A stretch of 64,000 nt of DNA. Source: Euzebya tangerina (GTDB lineage Bacteria > Actinomycetota > Nitriliruptoria > Euzebyales > Euzebyaceae). Position 1 is the first letter of the stretch. Each line of letters begins with the position of its first letter. Positions 9,194-32,819 of the stretch are shown one piece after another. The position numbers and the translations under genes were made by a program. The DNA lies in assembly GCF_003074135.1 (NCBI RefSeq), contig NZ_PPDK01000001.1, positions 1,674,001-1,738,000 on the forward strand. Direction: 5' to 3'. Under the pieces are notes generated by a model. The model was not told the DNA's origin, searched no databases, and saw only the letters and a list, made by a program, of their open reading frames with translations.

Positions 9194-9323
9194 GCGATTG
9201 GACACGATCGTGCAGATTCCCACGCATACGTGGGTTAGACCCCGATCGTGCGGGATAACCCGTGGGCGATTGGACACGATCGTGCAGATTTCCACACATA
9301 CGTGGGTTAGGCCCCGATCGTGC
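9194..9323. repeat. Two direct copies of a 58-bp palindrome-rich element
   Basis: Copies at 9194-9251 and 9266-9323 (72-bp period, 14 bases apart) differ at only about three positions. Each contains the 10-bp palindrome CACGATCGTG, an inner stem CCCACG/CGTGGG with a four-base loop (one pair lost in copy 2), and a second CGATCG near the end. They fill the gap between the DUF35 gene and the second CoA ligase. They could be paired operators, a transcript-processing or attenuation element, or a small repeat family. No third copy was seen in the window. Confidence 0.85.
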
Positions 9324-9358
9324 ACCACCACGGCGCAGCCGGTCGAGGGGACCGGCCG

Positions 9359-23705: not shown

Positions 23706-25460
23706 TCAGCCCTCCAGGACTCGAGCGAAGGCCTCCTCCAGCCACTCGGCTCGAACGTTGCGGTTGACCGGTATGTGGGCGAGCAGCGGCCCGGTCAGGT
23801 CGGCGGCTCGTGCAGCCAGGTCGTCCAGCGCGTCGATCGAGTCGACGAGCACGGCTTGCGCACCCAAGCGGGCGGCAACGCCGGCCAGGTCGACGGACGC
23901 GAACAGCGACTGCTCGTCGGGGAGGTCGAGCATGCGCAGGAAGTGCATCTCGGCGCCGTAGGCCCGGTCGTCGAACACCAGGATCAGCATCGGTATGCGC
24001 GCTCGGACCGCGGTGTCGAGGTCTCCCAGGCTCATCATCAGCCCGCCGTCGCCGATGGCGAGGACCATCAGCCGGTCGGGGCTGCCCACGGCGGCCCCCA
24101 TGGCCGTGCCGAGCCCCAGGCCGACGGCGCCGAAGTCCAACGCGAAGGCGAAGGCGTCAGGACGTGGCACCGAGAGATACCCGGCGGGGAAGCCGCAGAA
24201 GTGACCGCCGTCGGTGACCACCGAGCGGCGTCGGGGCAGGAGGGCGTCCAGCCGAGCGCACACCGTTCGGGGGTCCAGGCCGTCGGGTCCGCTGGCGTCC
24301 TCGTGGGCCGTGGCCAGGTCGAAGGTGTCCAGCCGTCGTCGGATCTCGGGGGTGCGGTAGCCGGTGGTGGTGGCCGGCAGCCGGTCGAGGAGTGCGGCGG
24401 CGGTGGTGGCGGCGTCGCCGACCAGGCCGACTTCGGCGGGGGTGTAGGCCCCGATGGCCTCGGGGTCGATGTCGACGTGAATCAGCTGGGTTGGTGGCCG
24501 GAAGAGATGGCCGGCCTTGTTGGTGAAGGAGTTGACGCTGGCACCGAGGACCACGACGACGTCGGCGTCGGCGATCAGTTCGGCGCCGAGCGGCGTCGCG
24601 AGGCCGCCGCAGATGCCGACGGACCAGGGGTGATCATCGAACCAGCTCTTGCCAGGCAGGGACGTTGCGAGCAGGGCGCCGATCCGGTCGGCCAGGGCCA
24701 CCGCCTGTTGCTTGGCGCGGCTTCGGATGGCGCCGCGGCCAGCCAGGACGACCGGGCGCTGGGCGGAGCGGAGGAGTTCGACGGCAAGGTCGAGGGCTCG
24801 GGAGTCTGCGTGGCCCCCACCTGGGTCAGGTTCCCCGCGAGGAGGTGAGGTTCCCCGCGACGAGGTGAGGTTCCCCACCCGGGGCATAGGGGTGCCGGGG
24901 ACCTGATCGGGCTCAGGAGAGGTGGCGGTCCAGCCCCTGTCGCCCAGGACTTCGGCCACCGACGGTCCGGAGTACTGCTCGTCCTGCACGTCGGTCGGCA
25001 TCGAGATGGCGACCGGACCGGGTCGGGTCAGGGCCAACTCGATGGCGGCGGCAACATCGGCGGCGGCCGTGGTCGCGCCGAACGACTGCACCGGCACCCC
25101 GGCCGCGGCGAACAGGGCGTCCTGATCGCAGTCTTGCGGAAGGCCCGGTACGGCGTTCGGTGTGTTGCCGGCCAGCAACACGAGCGGCGTACGAGCCTTG
25201 CGAGCCGATATCAGGGCCGTCAAGGCGTTGGTCACCCCCGGCCCCTGTGTGACGGTGCAGATCCCCACACGCCCGCTCATCCGGGCGTACCCGTCGGCCA
25301 TGGCGATGGCGGCCGACTCGTGTCGGGTCCCGATCACACGGACCCCGAGCTGGCTGGTCAGGTGGGGGATGAGGCGCAGGTTCCCATCGCCCATGAGCCC
25401 GAAGACGTCGGTGACGTCGTGGGCGACCAACGTCTCCGCCACAGCCTCGAAAACCTTCAT
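23706..25460 (-). CDS. Thiamine diphosphate-dependent enzyme (acetolactate synthase/benzoylformate decarboxylase-like)
   Basis: A 584-residue three-domain TPP enzyme. The PYR domain has VFGLMGDGN and TRHESAAIAMADGYAR with the activating Glu, the central domain has VVLAGRGA, and the PP domain has AIGDGGLMMS. The metal-site partner usually read as NN is DD here (LVFDDRAYG). Between the PYR and central domains (about residues 193-210) three copies of the 20-bp repeat are translated as a Gly/Ser/Pro-rich insert. I take the ATG at 25460, because the longer N-terminus to 25514 would overlap repeat DNA. Likely carboligation or decarboxylation of a 2-keto acid, which fits the alpha-hydroxy-acid oxidase in the same regulon. 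Confidence 0.85.
   Translation of the reverse strand: MKVFEAVAETLVAHDVTDVFGLMGDGNLRLIPHLTSQLGVRVIGTRHESAAIAMADGYARMSGRVGICTVTQGPGVTNALTALISARKARTPLVLLAGNTPNAVPGLPQDCDQDALFAAAGVPVQSFGATTAAADVAAAIELALTRPGPVAISMPTDVQDEQYSGPSVAEVLGDRGWTATSPEPDQVPGTPMPRVGNLTSSRGTSPPRGEPDPGGGHADSRALDLAVELLRSAQRPVVLAGRGAIRSRAKQQAVALADRIGALLATSLPGKSWFDDHPWSVGICGGLATPLGAELIADADVVVVLGASVNSFTNKAGHLFRPPTQLIHVDIDPEAIGAYTPAEVGLVGDAATTAAALLDRLPATTTGYRTPEIRRRLDTFDLATAHEDASGPDGLDPRTVCARLDALLPRRRSVVTDGGHFCGFPAGYLSVPRPDAFAFALDFGAVGLGLGTAMGAAVGSPDRLMVLAIGDGGLMMSLGDLDTAVRARIPMLILVFDDRAYGAEMHFLRMLDLPDEQSLFASVDLAGVAARLGAQAVLVDSIDALDDLAARAADLTGPLLAHIPVNRNVRAEWLEEAFARVLEG
24829..24876. repeat. Three copies of the 20-bp GGTTCCCC repeat inside the TPP enzyme gene
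   Basis: GGTTCCCC cores begin at 24829, 24849 and 24869, exactly 20 bases apart, with GAGGTGA between them. This is the same unit as in the CoA ligase gene at 28.9-29.1 kb. The first copy is preceded by GTCA in both places. The insert is in frame and falls in a linker between domains. Confidence 0.9.
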
Positions 25461-25527: not shown

Positions 25528-25575
25528 GGGGAACCTGACCTCGTGGTGGGGAACCTGACCTCGTGGCGGGGAACT
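25528..25575. repeat. Three copies of the 20-bp repeat in an intergenic gap, opposite orientation
   Basis: GGGGAACC cores at 25528 and 25548 and a diverged GGGGAACT at 25568, 20 bases apart, lie between the TPP gene start and the SnoaL-like gene end. The spacer is GACCTC(G) rather than CACCTC(G). This array is inverted relative to the two arrays inside genes. Confidence 0.85.
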
Positions 25576-25589
25576 TGGCCATCGACCCG

Positions 25590-26147
25590 TCACCGGGGTA
25601 GCCCTGGGGCCAGGGGAAGCTCCGCCGGCGCCGGATCCGTCCCGGGCCAGCGCTTCCGGTTCGACTCCGCCAGCCCGGTCTGCAGGTCCGCCAACGGCAT
25701 CGCGTAGAGCTGCTGGACCACCCGCTCGCGGAACCGCCACCTCGCCTCGCCGTCGCCCTCCGCGCTGAAGACATAGGTGTCGTTGTACCGGAGGGCGATC
25801 ATGACCGTCTCCTCACCGATGGCGAGCTCGGCGTGGGCCGCGACCACACCGGTCGCCGTCCCGTCGTCACCGAACTCGAGGACCTGCGAGTGCGGATAGT
25901 GATAGGTCGCGCCGAACATGTCGGTGCGGTGCCGGTAGTAGGCGACGACCGGCTCGCGACCCTCGATCCGACCCTCGACGGAGTCGAACACCGCGTCCTG
26001 GGTGTACATCGCCTCCACGGCATCCCAGTCCCGGTCGTCGACCGCCATGGCGTAGCGCGCGGCCAGCTCCTGCAACGCCGCTCGGTCCTCCAGGCGGCGG
26101 ACGCGTGCCTCGAGGTCGGGGGTCCCTTCAGCAACGGAGCCGCTCAC
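25590..26147 (-). CDS. SnoaL/NTF2-like fold protein
   Basis: A 185-residue protein with the cone-shaped SnoaL-like pattern: LEDRAALQELAARYAMAVD helix, DWDAVEAMYTQDAVFD, an IEGREPVVAYYRH strand-helix, and a mixed sheet with 'HAELAIGE'. Such proteins act as isomerases, cyclases, dehydratases or ring-hydroxylation-linked subunits. The GTG at 26147 overlaps the aldolase stop (GTGA); a GTG at 26156 is the alternative. Its tail is Pro/Gly-rich and extends past the normal domain. It is one of three SnoaL-like genes in the presumed regulon. Confidence 0.78.
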   Translation of the reverse strand: MSGSVAEGTPDLEARVRRLEDRAALQELAARYAMAVDDRDWDAVEAMYTQDAVFDSVEGRIEGREPVVAYYRHRTDMFGATYHYPHSQVLEFGDDGTATGVVAAHAELAIGEETVMIALRYNDTYVFSAEGDGEARWRFRERVVQQLYAMPLADLQTGLAESNRKRWPGTDPAPAELPLAPGLPR

Positions 26148-26830
26148 GCCGCCCACCCCTCGCCCGCAGCCGCCACGTGCCCCCGGCCCTTCCGTCGGAC
26201 CAGCCCCCAGGTATGGGTGAGGTAATCAGCCCGGGTCACGAGGTCCTTCACCCGCCCGACCATCTCCTCCTCCATCTCGGGCGCCCCGGTCGGGGTGATG
26301 CGGACGTCGAGCTCTGCGGCGTACTCCAGGGTCACCATCAGCGACACGGCCGGCCCCAGCCGCTCGTGGACGGTGATGGCGCCGTGGTATGGGATGAGCA
26401 CGGTGTGGTTGTCGCCCAGGGCCGGCCCGACGGACTCGAAGTCGTCATCCGGACACATGGCCGTCTCACCGGCGAAGAAGCTGGCCAGGTTGTGATAGGT
26501 CCTCGGCGGCCGGGCCATGGCGCAGAGCGCGGTGATCCACGGGCCGTGGGTGTGCACGATGGCGTTCACGTCGTCCCGCTCGGCGTAGATGCCCTGATGG
26601 AAGTCCGCGCCCAGGCTGATGGTCCGGTCGCCGTCGACCTGGTTGCCGTCGAAATCGATCTGGACGACGTCGTCAGGCGTCATCTCCTCGAACGTCTTGT
26701 CGAGCACATTCATCCAGAACGTGTCGGAGTCCGGGTCGCGCATCGAGACGTGACCACCGATCTCCGAACCCAGGCCGTAGGTCGCGAGGCCCCGACAGGC
26801 CAGCGCGATGTCGTGTTGTGGTGTGCTCAT
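26144..26830 (-). CDS. Class II aldolase/adducin-like protein
   Basis: A 228-residue protein of the L-fuculose-phosphate aldolase fold: GLGSEIGGHVSMRD at the N-terminus, the zinc pair HTHG near residue 94, and a C-terminal YHGAITV strand. Members are zinc-dependent aldolases, epimerases or decarboxylases; in catabolic clusters they often cleave or decarboxylate a keto/hydroxy acid. It overlaps the following SnoaL-like gene and sits 45 bases after the SDR gene. Substrate unknown. Confidence 0.82.
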   Translation of the reverse strand: MSTPQHDIALACRGLATYGLGSEIGGHVSMRDPDSDTFWMNVLDKTFEEMTPDDVVQIDFDGNQVDGDRTISLGADFHQGIYAERDDVNAIVHTHGPWITALCAMARPPRTYHNLASFFAGETAMCPDDDFESVGPALGDNHTVLIPYHGAITVHERLGPAVSLMVTLEYAAELDVRITPTGAPEMEEEMVGRVKDLVTRADYLTHTWGLVRRKGRGHVAAAGEGWAA

Positions 26831-27729: not shown

Positions 27730-29568
27730 TCAGCGGGTGATGGTGAAGTCCGTGGTCTCGCGGTCCCAGGTGTCCGGGGTGATCCCGTCCTCCCGCAGCC
27801 GGTACTTCTGGATCCGTTGGGACGGGGTCTTCGGCAGCTCGGCCAGCAGTCGGACGTAGCGGGGGACGGCGAAGTGGGCCATGTGGTCGTTGCAGAACCG
27901 CACCAGGTCGAGGGGATCGAGGTCCGCGTCCGGGCGCGGGACGACGGCGACCATGACCTCCTCCTCCGAGAGCTCGGAGGGCACCCCGTACGCAGCGGAC
28001 TCGATGACGTCGTCGTGGGTGTTGATGACCCGCTCGACCTCGAAGGAGGAGATGTTCTCGCCGCGCCGTCGGATGGCGTCCTTCATGCGGTCGATGAACG
28101 TCACGTAGCCGTCGGCGTCCATGCGTGCGCGGTCGCCGGTGTGGAACCACAGGTTGCGGAAGGCGTGCAGCGTCTCCTCGGGCATCCCGTGGTACTCGCT
28201 GATCATCACATCCGGGTACTTGGGGCGGACCACGATCTCGCCGGCCACGTCGACATCGCAGACGTTGTCCTGCTCGTCGTGGATCTCGACCTCGAAGTGC
28301 GGCGAGGGTTTGCCGCAGGTCCCGATCCGGGTGTCGTCGAGGGTGTTCTGGAGGGAGATGGAGGTCTCCGTCATCCCGTACACCTCGATCAGGCGGAGGC
28401 CGAATCGCTGCTCGAAGTCCTCCCAGATCTCCACGGGTGCGGGGGCTCCGAAGGCCCGGGTGACCGGGTTGTCGGCGTCGTCTGGCTGCGGCGGCTGCTT
28501 CATCAGCATCGTGAGCAGTGCGCCCTGGTAGTTGAAGGCCGTGATGCCACGGTCCCGACAGGTCTGCATGAACCCGCTGGCGGAGAACCGGTTGTCCATG
28601 ATCAGGCTGGCGTCGGCCACCATGGCCGCGAGGACCGAGGTGTACTTGGCGTTGATGTGGAAGAGGGGGAAGACCGTGTAGAGCAGGTCGTCCCGTCCGT
28701 AGCGGCACAGCCACGCCGTATGCCGTGCGGCCATCAGGTTCATCCGGTGGGACAGCACGACCCCTTTGGAGGGGCCCGTGGTGCCGGAGGTGTAGAGGAT
28801 CACCGAGGGGTCGGAGGCCGAGAGGTCGGCCCGCCAGGCCGGACCGTCGGCGTACAGGTCCTCCAAGGCGTGGAGCGTCATTCGTGGCGGGAGACCGGTG
28901 TCGGTCAGGTTCCCCGCGGGAGAGGTGAGGTTCCCCGCTGGGAGGTGAGGTTCCCCGCCGGGAGGTGAGGTTCCCCGCTGCGAGGTGAGGTTCCCCGCTG
29001 GGAGGTGAGGTTCCCCGCCGGGAGGTGAGGTTCCCCGCTGCGAGGTGAGGTTCCCCGCTGGGAGGTGAGGTTCCCCGCCGGGAGGTGAGGTTCCCCGCTG
29101 CGAGGTGAGGTTCCCCGCCGCGTCGGTCGGGCTCCCCGCGTGGACGATCACATGGCGGAGGTCGGGGAGATCTTCTGCGATCTCGGCGACCCGGGGCAGG
29201 TACTGGGCGTCGCAGACCAGGGCGGTCGCCCCCGACTGGCTGATGATCCAGGTCAGCAGGTAGCCGCGGTTTGCGGTGTTGACGGGCACCTCGACCACGC
29301 CGGCCTTGCAGAGGCCGAACCACACGTCGATGTTCGCGACATCGTTGTCCATCATGAGGCAGACCCGGTCCCCGGCTTCCAGACCCAGCTGGCGTAGACC
29401 GGCGCTGATCCTGTCGGACCGCTCGTGCAACTCGGCGTAGGTCCGGGTCAGGCCCGCCACCTCTACCGCCACGCGGTCGCCGCTGCGCTCGGCCGACTGC
29501 TCGATCATGGCACCCAGCACCCACGGGGCGTCGGCGGGTGTGCCGTAGGGGTCGCTGGTGGCGCTCAT
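27730..29568 (-). CDS. Acyl-CoA ligase (CaiC-like) with a tandem-repeat insertion
   Basis: A 612-residue AMP-forming ligase, about 70 residues longer than its close paralogues because eleven copies of a 20-bp repeat are inserted in frame at about residues 148-220. Since 20 is not a multiple of three, the repeat is read in three frames in turn, giving a 20-residue period rich in Gly, Pro, Ser and Thr. Core motifs are intact: YTSGTTGPSKG near residue 258, EVYGMTETS, LWFHTGDRARMDADG and DRMKDAIRRRGENISSFEVE. ATG at 29568 is preceded by GAGGTGG. The insertion lies before the nucleotide-binding loop and probably forms a flexible surface loop. Confidence 0.9.
   Translation of the reverse strand: MSATSDPYGTPADAPWVLGAMIEQSAERSGDRVAVEVAGLTRTYAELHERSDRISAGLRQLGLEAGDRVCLMMDNDVANIDVWFGLCKAGVVEVPVNTANRGYLLTWIISQSGATALVCDAQYLPRVAEIAEDLPDLRHVIVHAGSPTDAAGNLTSQRGTSPPGGEPHLPAGNLTSQRGTSPPGGEPHLPAGNLTSQRGTSPPGGEPHLPAGNLTSPAGNLTDTGLPPRMTLHALEDLYADGPAWRADLSASDPSVILYTSGTTGPSKGVVLSHRMNLMAARHTAWLCRYGRDDLLYTVFPLFHINAKYTSVLAAMVADASLIMDNRFSASGFMQTCRDRGITAFNYQGALLTMLMKQPPQPDDADNPVTRAFGAPAPVEIWEDFEQRFGLRLIEVYGMTETSISLQNTLDDTRIGTCGKPSPHFEVEIHDEQDNVCDVDVAGEIVVRPKYPDVMISEYHGMPEETLHAFRNLWFHTGDRARMDADGYVTFIDRMKDAIRRRGENISSFEVERVINTHDDVIESAAYGVPSELSEEEVMVAVVPRPDADLDPLDLVRFCNDHMAHFAVPRYVRLLAELPKTPSQRIQKYRLREDGITPDTWDRETTDFTITR
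28908..29116. repeat. Eleven-copy 20-bp tandem repeat inside a CoA ligase gene
   Basis: GGTTCCCC cores occur at 28908 and then every 20 bases from 28929 to 29109 (the first gap is 21). Variable positions (CTGGG, CCGGG, CTGCG) themselves recur with a 60-bp period three times, so the array grew by duplication of a 60-bp, frame-preserving block. Confidence 0.95.
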
Positions 29569-29639
29569 CGGCCCACCTCGCATCGCCCGCGTCGGGCGTC
29601 TGCGTCCAGCGCCGGATGGCAGATCACCGACGCGCTCAT
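29565..29639 (-). other. Coupled 24-codon mini-ORF within a duplicated translation-start region
   Basis: The ATG at 29639 overlaps the stop of the upstream CoA ligase (ATGA), and the mini-ORF stop overlaps the ATG of the next CoA ligase (ATGA). The 20 bases around both ATGs are almost identical (CGAGGTGGsCCGATGAGCGC), so the mini-ORF seems to come from a local duplication of a start region. It may only keep ribosomes on the message. Confidence 0.45.
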
Positions 29640-31228
29640 CGGGCCACCTCGTAGCCGGCGGCCTCCCGGTCCCAGACGTCCGCCGGGAGCCCGGCCTCGC
29701 GGAGCTTGTACTTCTCGACCCGCTGCGACGGGGTGCGTGGGAACTCCGCCACGGCCACCACGTATCGGGGGACGGCGAAGTGGGGCAGGTCGGTCTGGCA
29801 GTGGTCCAGCAGGTCGACCGGGTCGATGGCCTCTCCGGGTTGGGCGATGACGTACACCGCCACCTCCTCGCCGCTGACCTCGTCCGGTACGCCGACCACC
29901 GCACAGGCCGCGACGGCGTCGTGCGCGGCAACGACCTTCTCGACCTCGAAGGAGGAGATGTTCTCCCCGCGCCTGCGGACCGCATCCTTCATCCGGTCGA
30001 CGAAGTGCAGCCCGCCGCCCGTGTCCAGCCAGGCTCGGTCGCCGGTGTGGAACCAGAGGTTGCGGATCGCCTCCAGCGTCTGAATGGGCATGTCGTGGTA
30101 GCGGTCGAAGATGGCCCCGGGCCGCCGGGGCCTGACACAGATCTCCCCGGTCGTCCCCGCGGCAACCGGGCGGTCATCAGCGTCGTGGATCTCGAGCTCC
30201 ACATACGGCGCGGCCCGGCCGCTGGTGCCGATGACCCGGTCGTCGACGGCGTTCATGGTCGCGATGCCGAGCTCGGTCGAGCCGTACACCTCGACCAGCT
30301 GCACACCGAACCGGGCCTCGAAGGGCCGCAGGAGCTCCGCAGGGGCGGGGGCCCCGTACGCACAGCGGACGGTGTGATCGCGGTCGCGGTCGGACGCGGG
30401 TTGCTTGAGCAGCATGGTCAGCAGGGCGCCCATGAAGTTGAACGCGGTCACACCCTCCTCCCGGCAGGTGTCCCAGAAGGTCGAGGCCGAGAAGCGGTCG
30501 TGGAGCACCAGTCGGGCGCCGCACACCATCGACGCCAGCACCGAGTTGAACTTGGCGTTCAGGTGGTACAGCGGGAAGGCGCTGTACAGCACATCGTCCG
30601 GCCCGTAGCCCATGATCTGGATCGTGGTGCGGGCCAGCGTGAAGTCGGCGGCGTGGCTGCGGACGACGCCCTTCGATGGCCCGGTCGTTCCGGAGGTGAA
30701 CATGATCGAGGACGGGTCGAACGGGTCCACCTCGACGGTGACCGGGGCGGAGGAGACACCCTCCAGCACGCTCTGCAGACCCGCATCGGCGTCGACCACC
30801 ACGATGTGCTGCAGATCGGGCACATCCCCGCGGACCTGCCGGACCCGCTCGGCCAGCCCGGCGTCCACGACCACCACCCTGGCACCGGAGCGGTGCAGCT
30901 GGTCCGCCAAGAGGGCGCCGCGGAGCGCCACGTTGAGTGGCACCTCGACGAACCCGCCGGCGCCGACCCCGACCCACACCTGCAGGAACGCGACGGAGTT
31001 GGTCATCACGAGGGCGACGCGATCACCGGGTACCAGCCCTCGATCCGCCAGGGCACGCACAACCTGGTTGCCTGCCGCGTGCAACTCGCCGTAGGTGACG
31101 GTACGGCCGGCCACGGAGACGGGCACGGCATCGGGTGTCTCGGCGGCCCGCGCGGCCACCACCTCTGCCAGGGTGACGCAGTCCCGCGTGATGTCCTGCG
31201 GGTCGGCGAGGGCGGTCCGGCTAGTCAC
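29636..31228 (-). CDS. Acyl-CoA ligase (CaiC-like)
   Basis: A 530-residue AMP-forming ligase: FTSGTTGPSKGV near residue 177, EVYGSTELG, LWFHTGDRAWLDTGGG, DRMKDAVRRRGENISSFEVE, and a C-terminal TPSQRVEKYKLRE with the likely catalytic Lys. The GTG start overlaps the upstream ligase stop by eight bases. Together with its two neighbours and the ligase at 5237 it forms a set of close paralogues, so the operon can probably activate a range of related acids. Confidence 0.92.
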   Translation of the reverse strand: MTSRTALADPQDITRDCVTLAEVVAARAAETPDAVPVSVAGRTVTYGELHAAGNQVVRALADRGLVPGDRVALVMTNSVAFLQVWVGVGAGGFVEVPLNVALRGALLADQLHRSGARVVVVDAGLAERVRQVRGDVPDLQHIVVVDADAGLQSVLEGVSSAPVTVEVDPFDPSSIMFTSGTTGPSKGVVRSHAADFTLARTTIQIMGYGPDDVLYSAFPLYHLNAKFNSVLASMVCGARLVLHDRFSASTFWDTCREEGVTAFNFMGALLTMLLKQPASDRDRDHTVRCAYGAPAPAELLRPFEARFGVQLVEVYGSTELGIATMNAVDDRVIGTSGRAAPYVELEIHDADDRPVAAGTTGEICVRPRRPGAIFDRYHDMPIQTLEAIRNLWFHTGDRAWLDTGGGLHFVDRMKDAVRRRGENISSFEVEKVVAAHDAVAACAVVGVPDEVSGEEVAVYVIAQPGEAIDPVDLLDHCQTDLPHFAVPRYVVAVAEFPRTPSQRVEKYKLREAGLPADVWDREAAGYEVAR

Positions 31229-32819
31229 GGCCCACCTCGATCCCGAGCGCCGTCCGGTCGACGGAGTCGGGTGTCACCCCGTCGGCACGCAACTTGAACT
31301 TCTGCACGCGCTGGGAGGGGGTCTTCGGCAGCTCGGCCATGATCCGCAGGTAGCGGGGGACGGCGAAGTACGGCATCTGCTCGACGCAGTGGGCGAACAG
31401 CTCAGCCGGCTCCACCGTCACGCCCTCCATCGCGACGACGGCCACCATCACCTCGTCCTCGGTCAGCTCGGAGGGGACCGCGTAGGCCGCTGCCTCCAGC
31501 ACACCCGGGTGATCCTGGACGGCACGCTCGACCTCGAAGGAGGAGATGTTCTCGCCACGTCGGCGCAGCGAGTCGGAGATCCGGTCGGTGAAGGTCAGGT
31601 ACCCCTCCTCATCCATCACGCCGCCGTCGCCGGTGTGGAACCAGAGGTTGCGGAAGGCCTCGAGGGTCGCCTCGGGCTGCCGCCAGTAGCCCTGGAACAT
31701 GCCGAACGGAACCGCCGGGCGGGCCACGATCTCACCGCGAACCCCCGGTGGGCACCGATGTCCCTCGGCATCGTGGACCTCGACCTCGACGTGCTCACAC
31801 GCGCGCCCCATCGTCCCCCGCTTCACCCGACCGGGTCGGGGCGCCGTGGCCGGCCCCAGCTCGGTGGAGCCGTACACCTCCAGCAGCTCGACCCCGAAGC
31901 GTTGCTGGAACGGCTCGATGAGGGTCGGCGGCGCCGCGGCGCCGAAGGCGACCCTCAAGTCGTTGTCGGCGTCGTCGTCCCGCTCCGGCTGCCGCCACAG
32001 CAGCTGGATGATCGCCCCCATGTACCCGAACCACGTCGCCCCCGTCTCGCGGACGTCGTCGAGGAAGCCCGAGGCCGTGAACCGCTCACGCAGCACGGCT
32101 GGGGTGCCGCCCCACAGCGACGCCGTCACGACGGCACTCCGAGCGGTCACGTGGAACAGCGGGAACATCGAGTAGGCAACGTCCCGCTCGGTCAACTCCA
32201 GGATGTCGATCCAGGCCCGAGCGTTCCACAGCGCACTGCGATTGTTGTGCATGACACCCTTAGCGGGCCCCGTCGTCCCGGAGGTGTACATGATGTAGAG
32301 GAGGTCGTCCTCGGCCCGCTCGGTGAACGGAACCGGGTCGGCCGCCAAGAGGTCGTCGAACGTCGTCGTCTGATGCGCCGACTCGCCGCCGCCACGCGGG
32401 GCCGGGTCCACCGAGCCCACCACGATCACCGACCGCAGGTCGGGAAGGTCCAGGCCGTCCAGCCGCTCCACCCAGCGGGCGTGGACCACCAGCGCCGTCG
32501 CCTGGGAGCTGGCCAGGATGTGCCGCAGGAACTCGCCCTTGAGCGCGGTGTTGATCGGCACGTCCACCGCCCCGCACCAGGCGATCCCGAACCACGCCGC
32601 CACGTAGGCAGGGGTGGGGTCGAGCATCGTGGCAACCCGCTGGCCGGGCTGGATCCCCAGCGTCGAGAGGGCACCCCCCACCCGGGCCGCCCGGTCACGG
32701 AGTTGCCCGTAGGACAGGTCGCCCGTGGCGGCGATGATCGCGATCTCGTCCCCGAACCGCTGGGCCCGATCCTCGATCAGACGACCGAAGACCCAGGGGC
32801 CGGAGTAGACACGGGACAC
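31221..32819 (-). CDS. Acyl-CoA ligase (CaiC-like), first gene of the long minus-strand operon
   Basis: A 532-residue AMP-forming ligase: YTSGTTGPAKGV near residue 177, EVYGSTELG, LWFHTGDGGVMDEEG, DRISDSLRRRGENISSFEVE, and TPSQRVQKFKLRA. The hinge carries RIS where paralogues have RMK/RLK. GTG start at 32819; a TAGATT box beginning at the operator edge lies six bases upstream, so the mRNA is probably leaderless. Eight genes follow in the same direction down to 21996. Confidence 0.92.
   Translation of the reverse strand: MSRVYSGPWVFGRLIEDRAQRFGDEIAIIAATGDLSYGQLRDRAARVGGALSTLGIQPGQRVATMLDPTPAYVAAWFGIAWCGAVDVPINTALKGEFLRHILASSQATALVVHARWVERLDGLDLPDLRSVIVVGSVDPAPRGGGESAHQTTTFDDLLAADPVPFTERAEDDLLYIMYTSGTTGPAKGVMHNNRSALWNARAWIDILELTERDVAYSMFPLFHVTARSAVVTASLWGGTPAVLRERFTASGFLDDVRETGATWFGYMGAIIQLLWRQPERDDDADNDLRVAFGAAAPPTLIEPFQQRFGVELLEVYGSTELGPATAPRPGRVKRGTMGRACEHVEVEVHDAEGHRCPPGVRGEIVARPAVPFGMFQGYWRQPEATLEAFRNLWFHTGDGGVMDEEGYLTFTDRISDSLRRRGENISSFEVERAVQDHPGVLEAAAYAVPSELTEDEVMVAVVAMEGVTVEPAELFAHCVEQMPYFAVPRYLRIMAELPKTPSQRVQKFKLRADGVTPDSVDRTALGIEVGRD

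Follow-up and report, generated by a model that had tools for sequence, protein, structure and literature searches.

The tandem array inside a CoA ligase gene of the window (the window being the whole 64,000-nucleotide stretch of DNA that was analysed) is best read as one member of a family of short tandem repeats that are dispersed through the genome, specific to the lineage and united by the core GGTCAGGTTCCCC, and whose form is shaped by selection on the reading frame. We put the probability of this reading at roughly three in four (about 0.77). The family itself, its absence from congeners, four empty orthologous sites, a repeat spacing that depends on genomic context and the avoidance of stop codons are all directly seen in the DNA. 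The ligase locus comprises the following features:

28903..29116, plus strand: ligase array, 11 cores, GGTCAGGTTCCCC / GGTGAGGTTCCCC
29124..29136, plus strand: degenerate twelfth copy, GGTCGGGCTCCCC, 21 bp past the last good copy
27730..29568, minus strand: AMP-binding CoA ligase of 612 aa, the array host, with ANL motifs preserved to either side of it
29636..31228, minus strand: paralogous CoA ligase, 50% identical and without an array, the empty-loop comparator in the same genome
31221..32819, minus strand: second paralogous CoA ligase, 46% identical and without an array

The core consensus is GGT(C/G)AGGTTCCCC, and at up to one mismatch the window holds 16 matches to the core against 0.17 expected from shuffles, which excludes chance as the source of the ligase array. 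Core-to-core distances within this array are 21 bp once and then 20 bp nine times. Copies 2-11 constitute an exact 60-bp higher-order repeat: from 28924, the sequence matches itself at a lag of 60 in 133/133 bases, and at a lag of 20 in 162/173. An earlier note on this DNA had placed eleven copies of a 20-bp repeat, with a 60-bp higher-order period, inside the ligase gene at 28908-29116; the array is confirmed at 28903-29116, as are its copy number and its period, and the growth by 60-bp blocks that was proposed there is supported. The claim of an in-frame insertion is supported as well, the distance from first to last core being 201 bp, a multiple of three. The array is antisense to its host gene and codes for residues 151-223.

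While the ligase array had been seen, two further window arrays of the same unit had been missed, as had the genome-wide family:

24824..24876, plus strand: second window array, three copies at 20-bp spacing, in frame in a TPP-enzyme gene
23706..25460, minus strand: gene carrying the second array, for a thiamine-pyrophosphate (acetolactate-synthase-like) enzyme
25528..25580, minus strand: third window array, three copies at 20-bp spacing, intergenic

The second array sits between the N-terminal and central domains of the TPP enzyme, and the third lies 9 bp past the 3' end of the gene at 25590-26156. An imperfect 38-bp tandem repeat of 3.3 copies at window positions 9205-9324 is not related to the core family.

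The genome comprises 4.78 Mb in 12 contigs, in which arrays were located by pattern and ~0.9 Mb was read. Cores paired at 20 bp occur 84 times in forward and 72 times in reverse orientation at up to two mismatches, and 79 + 67 times over both strands at up to one mismatch, with a control of 0 in either case; further arrays are spaced at 21, 18 or 24 bp. In the fetched sequence, at least 51 arrays with the shared core were counted on both strands, a minimum in that contigs C1, C2 and C3 were read in part only, around pattern hits. One related unit thus recurs at many loci, as in a dispersed tandem repeat, in arrays that hold 2-12 copies and are fixed neither in orientation nor in position. Contigs C2 and C4 both terminate within an array of the core family; these are therefore breakpoints of the assembly, and the true length of some arrays is probably greater than that seen. 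Diverged 21-bp arrays at L103:11661-11745, L259:6472-6526 and L104:5251-5295 (e.g. GGTCGGGCTCTCC) look like older members of the family, and at L078:5430-5530, GCCAACCTTCCCCACGNCGC is repeated every 20 bp on the minus strand, facing an array of the main family on the plus strand, and is perhaps a sister unit.

The spacing of the cores follows the coding status of the DNA in which they lie. Outside genes, 123/129 core-to-core distances are 20 bp; inside genes, distances of 18, 20, 21, 24, 39 or 42 bp are found. Arrays in which all spacings are multiples of three (18/21/24 bp) are genic in 11 of 12 instances, as against 5 of 39 arrays with 20-bp spacing (one of these five, L091, lying in a weakly supported gene), the other 34 being outside genes. 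The association between spacing class and genic position is strong (Fisher p = 9.7e-7), also without L247 (1.2e-5). L247 is placed among the genic arrays on account of a GTG start upstream, at 2393, from which the frame stays open across the array, and L242 is likewise taken as genic, its gene call extending one base into the array. Genes were called with a simple codon model made for this analysis. Upon scanning ten host proteins, Pfam domains are found to flank the array, or to be interrupted by it, clearly in eight and probably in a ninth (L244), and in ArgJ the array forms an N-terminal extension; the genic calls therefore have support beyond the codon model.

With L242 and L247 included, 16 arrays are genic, and these lie at linkers, loops or termini of the encoded proteins. 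They are antisense to the gene in 14/16, and the coding strand over them reads GGEPDL or GNLTD, that is, hydrophilic and disorder-prone peptide. Three 20-bp steps make up 60 bp in the dnaE2 array; where the distance from first to last core is 40 bp (TPP enzyme) or 20 bp (valS), the frame is kept via the array edges. Hosts of 21-bp arrays include argJ, a hutI-like gene, an epimerase gene and the gene for a 3-hydroxyacyl-CoA dehydrogenase. A second low-complexity stretch (GRSGIGRSGVPSGIGFSGIGFSGIG) is inserted in the PHP domain of the dnaE2-like protein at L086:10444-14844.

A related observation concerns the fourth base of the core. In one of the three frames, the usual GGTC would give TGA on the coding strand. 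The six copies that fall in this stop-prone frame all read GGTG (6/6) and none has TCA (0/6), against 95/163 copies with TCA outside genes (p = 0.006), a comparison in which the six copies are not independent, since three belong to the homogenised ligase array.

No core-family array was found at up to one mismatch in three congeneric genomes, and at the same threshold 57 further relatives yielded just one isolated, chance-like pair; 393 further genomes of the phylum, searched at zero mismatches, likewise gave just one isolated pair. Orthologous loci in the three congeners were located with a concatenated protein query, and at the four loci checked (valS, dnaE2, ilvN-ilvC and ddl-lrp) the congener sites carry no array. 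Samples of congeners G003 (260 kb) and G001 (140 kb) contained no comparable repeat family. On these genome comparisons, the family is most likely lineage-specific and recently spread in one species. Literature searches on this repeat or organism found nothing, and searches with the core string returned few papers, unrelated to bacterial repeats of such kind.

When arrays are compared with one another, the core positions are nearly invariant and the linker is variable, a measure that is biased because the arrays were found by their core. The linkers, mostly 7-8 bp, recur between loci; one 8-bp linker, ACCGGGTC, is found unchanged in three arrays within genes, located on contigs C1, C2 and C4, a finding that fits copying from locus to locus. 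Neighbouring array pairs less than 2 kb apart number 4 against 1.0 expected (p = 0.018), and these close pairs hint at local spread.

The near-invariant core could reflect selection on the core itself, for example as a putative binding site, rather than neutrality. Should the arrays be sites for a sequence-specific DNA-binding protein, with a nucleoid, segregation, replication or regulatory role and with the genic copies merely frame-constrained, one would understand why the core is kept while the linker varies, why the spacing of 20/21 bp fits two helical turns, and why arrays lie throughout the genome on both strands. We nonetheless consider this unlikely. The conservation of the core is in part a search bias, the spacing outside genes is strictly 20 bp rather than spread over 20-22 bp, and the genic spacings of 18 and 24 bp lose helical phase; a copy number ranging from 2 to 12, the free orientation and position, and the failure to find any array in congeners all weigh on the same side.

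Intergenic arrays often lie just behind stop codons. The nearest gene 3' end is at most 33 bp away in 26/31, and among the 32 arrays with neighbours on both sides, 13 occupy convergent gaps (expected share 0.16) and one a divergent gap. The core unit is not palindromic, single arrays are direct tandem repeats, and inverted core pairs, which give perfect hairpins, occur at three places only. Compared with shuffled sequence, the sense strand folds more weakly (mean z +0.9) and the antisense strand slightly more strongly (mean z -1.1). A palindrome or terminator origin was rejected on the basis of the three inverted pairs and the weak folding of single arrays. It is, by the same evidence, highly improbable that the arrays act mainly through RNA, terminating transcription or serving as 3'-end elements, with the genic copies as strays: their excess in convergent gaps and close to gene 3' ends (within ~30 bp), their scarcity in divergent gaps and the perfect hairpin formed with an inverted copy at three places are what such a role would predict, but hairpin forms are rare, and it is the sense strand that folds less well than its shuffles. 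Arrays opposed on the two strands, less than 100 bp apart, are found at L096:5634-5806 and L086:6277-6535, where long hairpins are possible.

The host ligase has the hallmarks of an ANL adenylating enzyme, with Pfam domains AMP-binding (2.2e-65) and AMP-binding_C (1.5e-14) both intact around the array and a conserved P-loop motif, SGTTGPSKG, starting 37 residues past it; that every ligase motif is kept despite the array, as first noticed, thus holds. It belongs to a row of three CoA-ligase paralogues at 27730-32819. The closest ligases that the congeners yielded show only ~50% identity, and the array-bearing enzyme has no close orthologue there. Both the window paralogues and the congener homologues have a short loop at the array position. 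The earlier note had considered whether the equivalent loop is free of repeats throughout the family: it is so in the paralogues and congeners, but not in another CoA ligase of this genome, at L246:3769-5412, which carries a two-copy 21-bp array in the equivalent loop.

An AlphaFold model of the ligase, built from ten sequences (mean pLDDT 79, pTM 0.80), places residues 148-220 at pLDDT ~30, between strands 139-143 and 231-234, and the fold around them stays confident. Because such low values are confined within an otherwise confident fold, the array is, in this model, an added disordered loop, lying beyond the conserved ligase motifs. A disordered loop of ~73 residues between two strands before the P-loop would have been made by duplication of 60-bp blocks, and it is probably close to neutral for catalysis.

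Gain or loss of one 20-bp unit shifts the ligase frame, and on/off switching of the enzyme by array copy number is therefore mechanically possible. That the array actually is phase-variable or tunes the ligase is the reading we would give up most readily, for although the unit length is not divisible by three and copies 2-11 are homogeneous and look freshly expanded, housekeeping genes (valS, argJ) and tens of intergenic sites carry this repeat too, and most genic arrays have multiple-of-three units, unable to switch frame. With valS, dnaE2, argJ, a queuosine-synthesis gene, a 3-hydroxyacyl-CoA dehydrogenase and a helicase all carrying the repeat, in addition to the intergenic sites, the idea of an array peculiar to the ligase loses its support, and a genome-wide process explains the ligase array better.

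For a lineage-specific family under frame selection, new arrays would be seeded by the copying of short stretches of existing arrays, which might then grow or shrink through slippage or unequal recombination. Arrays would persist where harm is small, just behind stop codons and in protein loops, linkers and termini, and frame-breaking arrays would be purged by purifying selection. A bolder and distinctly tentative proposal is that of a self-copying short repeat, moving for example by templated insertion, that colonises the genome with a unit of 20 bp where there is no frame and of multiples of three where there is one; if true, this would be a very small mobile repeat colonising one bacterial genome. 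No flanking sequence common to distant loci was found apart from the repeats, and no associated enzyme was identified. A larger mobile element with shared flanks was rejected, as matches occur only between neighbouring arrays or between the repeats themselves.

Borg repeats of archaea are arranged head-to-tail in genes and between them, the genic units being divisible by three and the intergenic ones mostly not (PMC9879509, PLoS Biol 2023). Their products are commonly intrinsically disordered, the repeats are recently formed, units of 18, 20 and 21 nt are described, and each repeat region is said to have an independent origin, with many different units among them (PMC9879509). The arrays described here follow the same genic-unit rule as a strong tendency (11/12 and 5/39 genic), with five genic exceptions. 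Unlike the independent units of Borgs, however, the arrays compared here all have one core, and they lie in a bacterial chromosome rather than in archaeal elements; the same word can therefore be compared between coding and noncoding contexts. Such a comparison of one repeated word, with empty orthologous sites in close relatives, allows frame selection, the choice of tolerated loops and the origin of disordered segments to be measured directly. A further question is how so short a repeat reaches tens of sites in one species.

Mycobacterial MIRU/VNTR loci are tandem arrays of a shared unit at ~40 loci, mostly intergenic and near stop codons, with longer units of ~50-100 bp, and to our knowledge no context-dependent unit length is known for MIRU. 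The present family resembles them in its many dispersed loci of one related unit and differs in that the unit is short and its length depends on context. Rickettsia palindromic elements (RPE), which are longer, look selfish and sit within protein-coding genes, where they keep the frame and occupy tolerated places. Here, too, in-frame insertion is seen at tolerated protein sites, in 16 genic arrays, but the unit is short, direct and tandem rather than palindromic. Neisserial dRS3 elements are 20-bp dispersed repeats in arrays, each an inverted repeat, and intergenic; the 20-bp dispersed arrays are alike, whereas the core described here forms no palindrome and is also found within genes. Nor do the arrays resemble REP/BIME, given a non-palindromic unit with inverted pairs at 3 places only, or CRISPR arrays, whose unique spacers of ~20 bp or more contrast with the linkers seen here, mostly of 7-8 bp and shared by different loci.

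A phage or plasmid origin was also rejected, the matches on viral contigs sharing only a 9-bp word within one gene family and not this array. Several of the viral contigs L128-L141 (e.g. L129:7240-7330) share GGGGAACCT..AGGTTCCCC..AGGTTCCCC within the 3' portion of a long gene that looks like a primase/helicase. The C-terminal tail of this gene reads, depending on the frame, GEP, GNL and GSP, and the word is possibly a repeated DNA word within a coding tail.
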